Virus record (IMG/VR): IMGVR_UViG_3300022924_000032
Span: 1-22,825 of that record
From: a virus
Direction: 5' to 3' (one strand)
Length of the DNA: 22,825 nucleotides
The notes beneath the pieces were generated by a model, which saw only the letters and a list, made by a program, of their open reading frames with translations, searched no databases and had not been told where the DNA came from. Positions 9,074 through 21,219 of the stretch are shown here, in pieces. A program made the translations under genes and the position numbers. Within the stretch, counting starts at the first letter, position 1; each line of letters begins with the position of its first letter.

Positions 9074-9475
9074 ATGGCAAATTATTCTTTTGGAGATATA
9101 GACGAAATCGTATGCCAGCACACATTGGGAGATTTCAGGTTTCAGGGCAAATCGGGAGAGAGTTATACGCTCGATATGGGCGGTATAAGGGCTAATGATG
9201 ATGCTAACCAAATAACTACAGGCGGCAAGCTTATGAGCCAGTTAAACCGCGTTAGGGGAAGCTTTGAGGGGGTTGCTGCAAATGACAGCGACAACCAGGC
9301 GATTACCGATGTAGCTAAACTATCGGGGCATCCTGATTTAGGCACATGGACAATTTCATTTTTAAATGGAAAAGTGGTAAAAGGCAAAGGTCGTCCCGTT
9401 GGGGATATTCAGGAGGACAGCAACGCGGGTACATTTACCCTTAAAATCGCTGCCGAGTTCTTTGAGAAAATCTAA
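9074..9475 (+). CDS. Tail tube protein (Mu gpM-like)
   Basis: 133 residues directly after the sheath, the standard place for the tube. A conserved-looking core includes KLMSQLNRVRGSFEGVAAN, a WTISFLNGKVVKGKGRPVGD strand pair and TFTLKIAAEFF near the C-terminus, consistent with the beta-barrel tube fold. It is preceded by an A-rich leader (TTTTAAAAAATAAAAAGAA) rather than a Shine-Dalgarno sequence, the initiation style seen across this genome. Confidence 0.85.
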   Translation: MANYSFGDIDEIVCQHTLGDFRFQGKSGESYTLDMGGIRANDDANQITTGGKLMSQLNRVRGSFEGVAANDSDNQAITDVAKLSGHPDLGTWTISFLNGKVVKGKGRPVGDIQEDSNAGTFTLKIAAEFFEKI

Positions 9476-9486
9476 TACAAAACAAA

Positions 9487-9681
9487 ATGGCAGGATACAC
9501 CACATGCACCCAAGACCCTGAAAGGTTTGGAGAAAATGATTTCGTATATATGTTGCAAGACCTTTCTGAAAACAGGACTGTTTCGCCTGAACATTACGAA
9601 AACTTTACAAAAGCAATTGAGGCGTTTAAAGCTGTTGGAATTGTAATTGACGTAGGAATACGTTTTGAACATCCTTGGTAA
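9487..9681 (+). CDS. Hypothetical 64-residue protein between tube and chaperone
   Basis: A compact soluble protein with TQDPERFGENDFVYMLQDL and HYENFTKAIEAFKAVGIVID. The start ATG follows ACAAAACAAA, with 11 bases after the tube stop. The composition and A-rich leader support translation, but I do not recognise a family. Its place between the tube and the tail-assembly chaperone suggests a tail role, which is unproven. Confidence 0.6.
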   Translation: MAGYTTCTQDPERFGENDFVYMLQDLSENRTVSPEHYENFTKAIEAFKAVGIVIDVGIRFEHPW

Positions 9682-9705: not shown

Positions 9706-10122
9706 ATGAAAACAGACAAAACAGAACAAAAACAAGTAATGACGGAGGAAATGGCAATGGTCGAGATACACGACTTTTTGAAGTTGTATATTAGAAAGCC
9801 AGTTGCTATAGAAAAAGTAGCGGAGGAATACCCAAACATGCTTCAATCAGTAATTGAGGGTAATTTACTTTTTAAAGATGGTGTTCCGGAATATACTCTA
9901 ATATTCCCAGCTCCCGGATTAACGGTTATAAACTTCAAAACAAGGGTAAGCCCAGGGACTGCTGCTAATCTTGCAAAAGGCATTGACTTTAAAACTAATG
10001 CTGTGAGGTACTCTTTAGTTTTGGTGGCGTATATTACGGGATTTGCCACCGTTGCAGAATTGGAGGAGCTACATAAATTCGACTATGACACGCTAAGGGA
10101 AGTTACTACCGTTTTTTCATAA
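9706..10122 (+). CDS. Tail assembly chaperone, short (gpG-like) product
   Basis: 138 residues between tube and tape measure genes, the position of gpG in lambda and of its counterparts in many other tailed phages. The N-terminus is charged (TDKTEQKQVMTEEMAMVEI) and the rest is mostly helical with a domain ending ELEELHKFDYDTLREVTTVFS. The chaperone binds and coats the tape measure protein during tail assembly. The frame ends at TAA 10120-10122, three bases after a run of six T, and the -1 frame then stays open for another 58 codons, so this is probably the short form of a frameshifted pair. Identity is based on position, size and the overlapping downstream frame. Confidence 0.75.
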   Translation: MKTDKTEQKQVMTEEMAMVEIHDFLKLYIRKPVAIEKVAEEYPNMLQSVIEGNLLFKDGVPEYTLIFPAPGLTVINFKTRVSPGTAANLAKGIDFKTNAVRYSLVLVAYITGFATVAELEELHKFDYDTLREVTTVFS

Positions 10123-10292
10123 GGTGGCTTGTAGGGGATAGTGTTGATGTTGCAGTTAAAAACATAGTCAACAATTACAATTGGCCACCGAGTGAGATAG
10201 ACAAAATGTATAGCGATGATTATGATTATAAGGGTATTTTGTACTGGAATAATGAAGTCGAATTAATACAGAAAAAAACGAAAACGAAATGA
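10089..10292 (+). CDS. Frameshift (-1) extension of tail chaperone, gpGT-like
   Basis: The -1 frame is open from just after a TGA at 10086-10088 to the TGA at 10290-10292, overlapping the end of the short product. Translation from 10116 gives 58 codons starting FIRWLVGDSVDVAVKNIVNN and including YDYKGILYWNNEVEL, a credible alpha-helical domain with conserved-looking aromatics. It has no good start of its own at the beginning (first ATG only at 10206). A shift at the T-run gives a fusion of about 195 residues (137 from the first frame plus 58). This mirrors gpG/gpGT, where the T part binds the tube subunits. No gene would otherwise occupy 10123-10292. Confidence 0.75.
   Translation, partial: HAKGSYYRFFIRWLVGDSVDVAVKNIVNNYNWPPSEIDKMYSDDYDYKGILYWNNEVELIQKKTKTK
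10111..10119 (+). promoter_or_regulatory. Candidate -1 slippery site
   Basis: GTTTTTTCA read as GTT TTT TCA in the first frame, followed by the TAA stop. The P-site TTT codon re-pairs perfectly after a -1 move, because 10112-10117 are all T. The next codon TCA does not re-pair well, so this is not an ideal X XXY YYZ heptamer; slippage would be of the single-tRNA kind with a nearby stop. It is the only T-run inside the permitted window 10089-10122. Confidence 0.6.
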
Positions 10293-10295
10293 GAT

Positions 10296-10336
10296 AAGCC
10301 TTTATAGTTGTGAAAAATTATAAAGGCTTTACTTTT
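10296..10336 (+). terminator. Hairpin between chaperone and tape measure genes
   Basis: Perfect 11-bp inverted repeat AAGCCTTTATA (10296-10306) and TATAAAGGCTT (10319-10329), 12-base loop, followed by TACTTTT. The T tract is interrupted, so it may be a weak terminator, an attenuator or an mRNA-processing/stability element that adjusts chaperone versus tape-measure levels. Confidence 0.6.
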
Positions 10337-10353
10337 AAAACAAACAATGCATT

Positions 10354-12288
10354 ATGGCAGCAACAATGCGCATACCTACAGTATTTACTGCTGTAGACAG
10401 GTTTAGCAACGTGGTTAATAATATGACCAGGGGTGTTGATAATTTCACTAAAAATGCATCGGCATCAATAGGTAAGGTAAACAAGCGATTTGATAAAATG
10501 ATAGGTTTGACGGATACGGTAAAATCCGCCTTAGCAGGGATTAGTTTAGCTATGTTGCTAAGTACTGCTATAGATGGCGTAAAAGATTATGAAACAGCCT
10601 TACACAGCTTGGAGGCGGTAACAGGACAGTCAAGCGGAAAATTTGTAAAGCAAATAGAAACATTAGCCAAAGCGAATAAAGTCTCTGCTATAGATGTAGC
10701 GGGTAGCTTTGAGGTTATTGGTTCGGCAATGTCCCAATATTTAGATAACCCCGATGCATTGGCTAAAATTACGCAGGCAGGTATAACCCTTGCAAAGGCA
10801 TCAAGGCAGGAATTAACCCCAACACTTGAAAATCTTACATCGGTAATGAACCAATTTAAAATTGGGGCAGAAGATGCTAATAAAGTAATAAACCAGTTAA
10901 CTGCGGGGGAGATTGTCGGTAGTGTATCGACTGCTAAAATAGCACAAGGGTTACAGGAATTTGGAGCGAATGCATATAGTGCCAATGTGAAATTAAGTGA
11001 ATCGGTTGCATTACTTGAAACGTTAGGTAAGCAAATGAGCCACGATAAAATTGCAGTAGGGGCGCGTAATATATTAGGGGTTTTGAGTAGCGCAAAGGGA
11101 TTACCAAAAGAAGCTATCGAATCCCTTAAAAAGCACGGTGTAAATACATCTTTATTGATGGATAAAAGCAAATCTTTACAGGTTCGTTTAACCGAGTTAA
11201 GCAAGATACAAAAGGATGCCGTTGCAATAACAAAGGTTTTTGGTAAAGAAAACAGTACGGCTGCAAATGTTATATTTCAAAATATCGACACTTATGGGAA
11301 ATGGGAGGAAGAGATTAGAAAAACAAACAAAGCACAAGAGCAGGCTAAAATAAACTCCGATACATTTGCGACCAAAATAAATGAGCTTAAAGCCAGCTTT
11401 ATAAACCTAATTGTAACGAATGACAAATCAAATATAGGTTTGAATTACACTAAAGAGGTTTTTGGTTTTTTAGCCGATAATATGCAAACCGTTATAAATA
11501 TAGGTGCTGGGTTATTGTTGTTTTATGCGGGGCTTAAAGTTGCTTTGATTGTGTCAAACGCCTTGACAATCGCTAATAGTATAGCTATGGGCGTTATGGG
11601 GGCTGCAACCGGTACGGCTTCAATTGCAATAGGTAGTAACGCCATAGCATTGGGGGCTTATAACATTGTAGCGGGTATTATGACCGGTGTAACGTGGTTA
11701 ATGAATACAGCATTATGGGCAACCGCTGCCGCAGTAATAGCAGCCACATGGCCCATACTGGCTATTGTTGCAGCCGTGTTAGCAGTGGTCTATATTTTCC
11801 TTTATTGGGATGAAATATGTGCATGGTTCTCTAAACAATGGGAGAAATTTACATCTTGGATAGGCGATTTATGGGATAAGTTAGTATCGTGGTTTAAGGA
11901 TTTCAGTTTTGAAGAGTTCTTTAAAAACATAGGCAAAGCCATTATAGACTGGATGTTGCTGCCTTTAAGGGGTGTTTTGAAACTACTATCTTATTTACCT
12001 GGTAAAGTTGGGGATATGTCTCAAAAAGCATTAGACAGCATTAACGATATGACAGGTAATTTAGGTATTAGCCTTGTAGGTGAAAGCAAAGTAGCGGAGG
12101 ACAAAGCCAAAGTTAAAAGGCTGGATAGCCCACAAGAGGCGAATGCTAAAGTAATGCAGGAAAACAGGCTAAAAGGTGCTGTGGATATTAACGTAAAAGA
12201 CAAAGGAAACAACCTTGAAAGCGCAACAGGTAGTTTTAACGGCATACCGGCACGTGTAACACCTACACAGGGTGCGTTTGGTAGCTAA
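10354..12288 (+). CDS. Tail tape measure protein (TP901-type)
   Basis: 644 residues, the longest gene here. The N-terminus (MRIPTVFTAVDRFSNVVNNM) and the conserved block DYETALHSLEAVTGQSSGKF, with later ASRQELTPTLENLTSVMNQF, GAEDANKVINQL and LLETLGKQM, fit the PhageMin_Tail/TP901 tape measure domain. A hydrophobic region at about residues 375-490 contains several possible membrane-spanning helices, then a Trp-rich stretch WFSKQWEKFTSWIGDLWDKL. The protein sets tail length and is thought to take part in DNA passage through the host membrane. It follows the chaperones, as expected. Confidence 0.9.
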   Translation: MAATMRIPTVFTAVDRFSNVVNNMTRGVDNFTKNASASIGKVNKRFDKMIGLTDTVKSALAGISLAMLLSTAIDGVKDYETALHSLEAVTGQSSGKFVKQIETLAKANKVSAIDVAGSFEVIGSAMSQYLDNPDALAKITQAGITLAKASRQELTPTLENLTSVMNQFKIGAEDANKVINQLTAGEIVGSVSTAKIAQGLQEFGANAYSANVKLSESVALLETLGKQMSHDKIAVGARNILGVLSSAKGLPKEAIESLKKHGVNTSLLMDKSKSLQVRLTELSKIQKDAVAITKVFGKENSTAANVIFQNIDTYGKWEEEIRKTNKAQEQAKINSDTFATKINELKASFINLIVTNDKSNIGLNYTKEVFGFLADNMQTVINIGAGLLLFYAGLKVALIVSNALTIANSIAMGVMGAATGTASIAIGSNAIALGAYNIVAGIMTGVTWLMNTALWATAAAVIAATWPILAIVAAVLAVVYIFLYWDEICAWFSKQWEKFTSWIGDLWDKLVSWFKDFSFEEFFKNIGKAIIDWMLLPLRGVLKLLSYLPGKVGDMSQKALDSINDMTGNLGISLVGESKVAEDKAKVKRLDSPQEANAKVMQENRLKGAVDINVKDKGNNLESATGSFNGIPARVTPTQGAFGS

Positions 12289-20604: not shown

Positions 20605-21219
20605 ATGAAAACAAGATTAGAAATTAAAAACAGATTTACCGGTAAAATTATTTTTGAATTTGAAACTGAAAATAACACAATTAAAAAAACAATAGACGCT
20701 TATATAAAGCAAGAACTTAAAACTAAATTCCGTGCTGACCTGACCGATGCTAACCTGACCGATGCTGACCTGACCGATGCTAACCTGACCGATGCTAACC
20801 TGACCCGTGCTAACCTGACCGATGCTAACCTGACCCGTGCTAACCTGACCGATGCTAACCTGACCGATGCTAACCTGACCCGTGCTAACCTGACCGATGC
20901 TGACCTTTTAATGTTTAAGTCTGATTTATGGAGAGTTTTACTTATGTATAAAACAGAAGTAAGTGGATTAAAAAATGCAATCATATGTGGTCGAATTAAC
21001 GGGTCTGTGTATTCAGGAGAATGTGCGTGCCTAAAAGGGACTATTGCCAATGTAAAGGGTTGTGAAATAGATTTACTCCCTAATATAACTAAATCTACAA
21101 GCGAGCCTTCTGAGCAATGGTTTTTACAATTTAAAGAGGGTCAAAATCCTGAAAATTCAAAAACAATGAAATTAACTTTAGATTGGATTGAGGAATTTGA
21201 AATATTTTTAAAAGCATAA
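20605..21219 (+). CDS. Pentapeptide-repeat protein
   Basis: 204 residues in three parts. Residues 1-42 form an N-terminal domain ([20 protein letters not shown]). Residues 43-100 are twelve A(D/N)LT(D/R) pentapeptides, which would form a right-handed quadrilateral beta-helix. Residues 101-204 form a C-terminal domain with [21 protein letters not shown] and [15 protein letters not shown] recall this domain downstream of pentapeptide repeats in many phage proteins. A 16-residue N-terminal stretch is Lys/Glu-rich. Its function is unknown; some pentapeptide proteins mimic DNA and bind gyrase, but nothing here shows that. It is the first gene after the late terminator. Confidence 0.8.
20731..20904 (+). 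repeat. Tandem 15-bp repeats encoding pentapeptides
   Basis: A 9-base partial unit followed by eleven full 15-base units (20740-20904) of form CTGACC-GAT/CGT-GCT-AAC/GAC. Units differ only at two codons, GAT or CGT (Asp/Arg) and AAC or GAC (Asn/Asp); all other bases are identical. Such low divergence implies recent expansion or ongoing homogenisation. Copy changes would keep the reading frame. Confidence 0.9.

Follow-up and report, generated by a model that had tools for sequence, protein, structure and literature searches.

A predicted -1 frameshift at GTT_TTT in the tail assembly chaperone gene of a Bacteroidota phage family

Two overlapping frames between the tail tube and tape measure genes

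The window analyzed here is the whole 22,825-nucleotide stretch of a viral record (IMGVR_UViG_3300022924_000032, positions 1 to 22,825). It contains a run of tail genes, with a tail sheath gene (phrog_165) among the neighbors, and a pair of overlapping frames was located between the tail tube and tape measure genes:

9074..9475, + strand: tail tube protein (context; phrog_4699, E 4.9e-37)
9706..10122, + strand: tail assembly chaperone, short form (138 aa, zero frame; phrog_4648, E 4.2e-20)
10116..10292, + strand: -1-frame extension, an E'/T-like domain with a WPPSE motif (58 codons plus TGA; phrog_5697, E 3.6e-17)
10354..12288, + strand: tape measure protein (context; phrog_28, E 3e-53)

The position after sheath and tube and before the tape measure is the usual place for a tail assembly chaperone, and phages FL-1, V182 and phi3:1 share this gene order. 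The AlphaFold model of the zero-frame protein (pLDDT 93) resembles three unnamed viral proteins and has a weak structural match to a protein named 'tail assembly chaperone'; a search of PDB structures with this model returned nothing significant. Between the tail tube and chaperone genes lies a further ORF of 64 aa (9487-9681), which has a homologue in the related locus L004 and for which no counterpart is annotated in FL-1, V182 or phi3:1.

The zero-frame ORF (9706-10122) ends with the codons GTT (10111), TTT (10114), TCA (10117) and TAA (10120). The -1 frame, preceded by a TGA at 10086-10088, is open from 10089 to the TGA at 10290-10292 and translates as HAKGSYYRFFIRWLVGDSVDVAVKNIVNNYNWPPSEIDKMYSDDYDYKGILYWNNEVELIQKKTKTK followed by the stop. 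In the window, no ATG, GTG or TTG was seen near the beginning of this frame, just as the original prediction had stated. That prediction had also joined the -1 frame to the 138-aa chaperone in a fusion of 195 aa, and its coordinates and lengths were confirmed: the predicted fusion, join(9706..10116, 10116..10289), comprises 137 + 58 = 195 aa, with T10116 used twice. The count of 58 credible residues for the extension was likewise correct, and the C-terminal end had to be revised, as the frame runs past the YWNNEVEL named there to ...KTKTK. Judging from the matches to phrog_5697 and phrog_4648, the 58-residue extension is not a chance ORF.

A tblastn search with the fusion identified 86 phage records, from Flavobacterium and Cellulophaga phages, at a query coverage of at least 80%, and every match among those listed at this coverage consisted of two separate pieces. 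When viral contigs were scanned, the fused alignment gave 42 loci and a profile of the tail (the extension) 59, on partly shared contigs. After removal of near-copies, first 34 and then 52 non-redundant viral loci with both halves were examined. The halves were in different frames in all 52 and fused in none, a layout that supports the proposed -1 fusion of the tail assembly chaperone. No stops were seen in the tail frame of the relatives. Two scans of bacterial genome contigs found no relative. In public records, the second half is either not annotated as a gene (FL-1, V186 and FCL-2; our loci L007, L010 and L011) or annotated as a separate one (V182 and phi3:1; L008 and L009).

The protein encoded by the extension is conserved. 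In the near-identical contig L003/L013, which has the same T6 run, the tail shows 2 synonymous changes relative to that of the window and no non-synonymous one. When three close pairs were pooled, synonymous changes were found at 2 of ~92 sites in the tail and at 34 of ~252 sites in the zero-frame ORF (Fisher p 0.0012), a comparison weakened by the fact that the pairs were chosen after the results had been seen. Fewer synonymous changes in the tail would be expected under an added RNA constraint, and we regard this difference as suggestive.

Slip site and downstream stem-loop

At the junction of the two frames the following elements were recognized:

10111..10116, + strand: slip site GTT_TTT (Val-Phe); NTT_TTT in 52/52 of the loci where both halves were present and the slip site was located
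10117..10122, + strand: 6-nt spacer TCATAA, including the zero-frame stop TAA at 10120-10122 (spacing determined by inspection)
10123..10189, + strand: predicted stimulatory stem-loop (synonymous-codon randomisation, arm swap, window fold)

The TTT slip codon occupies 10114-10116; after a -1 shift, tRNA-Phe would pair at 10113-10115 and be followed by TTC at 10116-10118. In the 49 loci that have no further TT after the TTT, the preceding codon was GTT in 40, CTT in 6 and ATT in 3. The junction Phe is encoded by TTT in all 34 loci of the first set versus 141 of 182 Phe codons elsewhere in the gene. Among the 4515 other codons of these loci, an in-frame TT.TTT was encountered just 15 times. Because related sequences enter these counts as if they were independent, the significance is overstated. 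The codon following TTT varies (ATG 19, TCN 13, TAA/TAG 11 and others 6 in the 49 loci) and is therefore not what re-pairs. The original prediction had placed the slip at the T6 run. While the site itself was right, six T's are not required, since 19 of the 34 loci have only T5 and the other 15 have T6.

As had been predicted, the site in the window (C_GTT_TTT / T_TTT_TCA) does not conform to the canonical X_XXY_YYZ heptamer, at which both the P-site and A-site tRNAs re-pair in the -1 frame, and a canonical heptamer was present within the overlap in only 1 of 34 loci. In a set of distant relatives (L101, L102, L106, L109, L112, L113, L114 and L115), a canonical T_TTT_TTC/G/A replaces GTT_TTT; L113 was missed by the automatic slip-site search and is left out of the 52 loci. 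Because these distant cousins and phage P2 carry T_TTT_TTN, the sequences suggest that the window site is a form of the canonical site that was shortened during evolution.

Folding and inspection showed that a long stem opens ~6 nt past the TTT in most loci, regardless of the position of the stop. In the window, the 5' arm GGTGGCT (10123-10129) of the outer helix pairs with the 3' arm GGCCACC (10183-10189), and the inner helices are formed by 10130-10134/10175-10179 and by 10142-10173. Compared with synonymous-codon randomisations that keep the extension protein, the family mean stability was z -2.69 (sem 0.32), versus z -0.36 for an upstream control stretch. For the window alone, the signal was marginal against synonymous shuffles (z -1.63, 5.5%), with its own upstream control equally low (z -1.99). 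Swapping arms between loci made the pairing weaker: own arms paired with -11.60 kcal/mol and permuted arms with -9.17 kcal/mol (sd 0.34), with 0 of 2000 permutations as good.

Alignment-based analyses gave a more modest signal. RNAalifold returned no consensus pairs when all 30 rows were aligned and just 4 for a tidy subset. Column pairing amounted to 68.5% of cells versus 34-53% in slid controls. In a shuffle test, the covariation score was reached in 1/500 shuffles on 30 rows and in 37/500 on the 21 tidy rows, and across the observed covariation values of the tidy subset the range was 15 to 37/500. We consider covariation past the invariant GGTG/CACC pairs to be supportive but modest. In 11 of 30 rows, two G.A mismatches occur together in tandem, and loci L043, L046 and L053 keep the pairing with very different arm sequences. 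The standard stem is absent in L022, L038, L063, L066, L072, L088 and L098. Three of these (L063, L066 and L072) read CTT_TTT_ATG/ACC_AAC and have a short local hairpin in place of the long stem (L063 and L072) or none.

In the stretch that separates the extension from the tape measure gene, a second, terminator-like hairpin was noted at 10296-10329 (AAGCCTTTATA..TATAAAGGCTT, followed by TACTTTT). Hairpins of similar form but different sequence are present in L045, FL-1, V182 (L008), L027, L031, L018 and L044, and absent in L009, L014, L051 and L023. This element might lower transcription of the tape measure gene relative to the chaperone. A search of Rfam yielded no matching family; its sole match, RsaJ, was far below the gathering score and overlaps this terminator-like hairpin.

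Proposed slippage and alternative explanations

The comparative data strongly support a -1 fusion of the tail assembly chaperone, and we consider it very probable that two chaperones are made from one gene by -1 slippage at GTT_TTT before the stem-loop. For the slippage itself, its efficiency, the ribosomal site of the TTT and the function of the extension, we infer the following course of events. The majority of ribosomes would end at the TAA at 10120 and release the 138-aa short form. A minority would pause at the stem-loop that opens 6 nt downstream, the P site then holding GTT and the A site TTT. A distance of 6 nt from the A-site codon is usual for a frameshift stimulator. Since the stem lies 6 nt past the TTT, this placement of the two codons is the likely state. 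The tRNAs would then back up by one base, with tRNA-Phe re-pairing fully on TTT and the P-site tRNA-Val re-pairing partly on NGT, and translation would pick up at TTC 10116 to yield the 195-aa fusion with its extra P2 E'-like domain. By analogy to lambda gpG/gpGT, the short form may coat the tape measure protein while the extension would recruit tail tube subunits, and thus link them with the tape measure-bound chaperone. A subgroup of relatives would use the same codons for a two-base slip, or for a one-base forward slip.

The original prediction had suggested that the slip may occur in the P site only, with a stop nearby. Here tRNA-Phe would sit on TTT in the P site with a slow codon or a stop next in line, and the same 195-aa fusion would result. 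Such a single-tRNA slip would be economical, given that re-pairing of tRNA-Val on NGT is poor (the base preceding the slip codons is G in 16, A in 12, C in 4 and T in 2 loci), and the stop is indeed found 0-1 codons past the TTT in 31 of 34 loci. However, the next codon is not conserved and the distance to the stop is not fixed, being 0, 1 or, in several loci, 4-5 codons, so that the zero-frame stop does not seem to be the driver of slippage. Moreover, with the stem mostly 6 nt past the TTT, a TTT in the P site would leave a spacer of only 3 nt. The P-site version is therefore less well supported, and we regard it as rather unlikely.

The fusion could also be translated from edited transcripts, if polymerase slippage at the T5-T6 run left some of the mRNA with one T too many or too few. 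Members of the family differ in the direction of the shift, which in other families has been interpreted as pointing to transcriptional realignment (PMC3711429). Yet the homopolymers at which such realignment has been reported (PMC3711429), An of n >7 or Tn of n >8, are longer than the runs of five (19 loci) or six (15 loci) T's found here, and a stem kept at a constant distance from the slip codon is a hallmark of ribosomal events. We therefore consider transcriptional slippage very unlikely.

Translation of the tail as an independent gene, coupled to the chaperone stop and with its own, perhaps non-standard, start, is how V182 and phi3:1 were annotated, and in the window an ATA in the -1 frame overlaps the zero-frame stop. 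Codons aligned with this ATA are often GTA, CTA or TTA elsewhere in the family, however, and 29 of 34 loci lack any ATG, GTG or TTG in the tail frame ahead of the slip. V182 does have an in-frame TTG, but in FCL-2 and V186, with otherwise near-identical tails, a stop comes directly after it. With no consistent start among the relatives, this explanation is extremely improbable. Finally, a sequencing or assembly indel, or decay of a gene meant to be one ORF, has a virtually negligible probability: homopolymer runs are error-prone, but the T6 run and the two-frame layout recur in the independent near-identical contig L003, and the layout is also present in cultured, separately sequenced phages, with 0/52 loci fused.

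Second shift size and comparison with known systems

Slippage at GTT_TTT may not be confined to one base. FL-1, L027, L028, L029 and L038 have their tails in the -2/+1 frame, and a later scan added L073, L088 and L098, so that this subgroup accounts for 8 of the 49 non-canonical loci, with the same codons at the slip. A -2 slip at TTT would keep the length of the fusion, as a comparison of the window (VFFIRW) with L027 (VFFHRW) illustrates. A +1 slip, giving a product one residue shorter, is possible too, all members of the subgroup having T6. At the FL-1 site, ATT_TTT_TCA_TAG, the -2 and +1 slips would yield IFFHRW and IFHRW, respectively. In each class, slippage by the other amount would run into a stop after no more than 29 residues of extension. 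The first five -2/+1 loci sit among -1 members in a well-supported group of nine; a single origin was not rejected (AU p 0.165), and the tree needs 3-4 label changes. On these grounds we put forward, at roughly even chances, that GTT_TTT with its stem-loop is a dual-purpose site in the tail chaperones of Bacteroidota phages. It would be used mostly for -1 and in a subgroup for -2 slippage, the switch apparently having come about through the loss of a single base from the spacer region, with fusion length preserved. If true, this site would be the bacterial equivalent of the -2/-1 signal at GUU_UUU in arteriviruses.

The arterivirus nsp2TF/nsp2N signals (G_GUU_UUU and U_GUU_UUU) use the same codon pair as the window (PMC6675879), and their slip codons correspond to the GTT_TTT found in 40 of the 49 non-canonical loci. 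At the arterivirus site, tRNA-Phe re-pairs after a shift of either -1 or -2, with limited re-pairing in the P site, which provides a precedent for both shifts at GUU_UUU with A-site re-pairing (PMC6675879). The arterivirus case differs in its eukaryotic ribosome, its transactivation by a protein, its C-rich motif instead of a stem-loop and its unrelated gene. The resemblance is one of mechanism only, and membership is not claimed.

Among phages, the closest likeness is to the E/E+E' pair of P2. P2 has the same myovirus-type order of sheath, tube, chaperone with -1 extension, and tape measure, and the window extension has in common with P2 E' a W-P-P-S-E motif and a downstream W. The family profile matched P2 E' in hhalign with a probability of 76% (P 2.3e-5), while comparison of the zero-frame half with P2 E gave no significant sequence similarity. 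P2 differs in slipping on the canonical T_TTT_TTG, whereas the window has GTT_TTT followed by TCA and a long predicted stem-loop 6 nt downstream. The slip site of lambda is the canonical G_GGA_AAG, unlike that of the window. The proteins of lambda gpG/gpGT differ as well, but here too a short chaperone and a minority -1 fusion are encoded upstream of the tape measure gene (PMC5009743). Tail-chaperone frameshifting is established in -1, -2 and +1 forms, including a -2 shift in phage Mu (PMC5009743). The FL-1 subgroup would be comparable to Mu, except that in the window family the -2 (or +1) members adjoin -1 members and share their codons.

Pfam assignment was less clear-cut. Against PF10109 (Phage_TAC_7; P2 E, Mu 41) the fusion scored 18 bits and the short form 12.7 bits, with a cutoff of 25, and 3 of 32 relatives matched this family (best E 2.2e-4). 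PF06528 (Phage_P2_GpE, the P2 E' domain) matched the extension in 1 of 33 members (E 0.055). With G/GT-type pairs the window locus shares the gene position, a conserved start-less downstream frame across the stop, and a conserved slip sequence in the overlap. We therefore regard the pair as working like a G/GT or E/E+E' pair that falls outside strict Pfam membership.

The literature searched contained no published frameshift in Flavobacterium or Cellulophaga phages. As far as this search reached, the Bacteroidota-phage family, the GTT_TTT site with its stem-loop and the putative switch of shift size within one family would be new. An unannotated and probably essential fusion protein would thereby be added to the Flavobacterium and Cellulophaga phage group. 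An annotation procedure that demands X_XXY_YYZ would overlook the GTT_TTT site. The family also offers a set of naturally varied frameshift signals: the slip codons are constant, but the position of the stop, the size of the shift and the sequence of the stem differ between members. With this set, one can directly test whether re-pairing of tRNA-Phe in the A site suffices by itself for -1 and -2 slippage on bacterial ribosomes.

Elsewhere in the window, near the end of the record, the ORF at 20605-21219 contains pentapeptide-like repeats and by eye appears to encode a pentapeptide-repeat protein.
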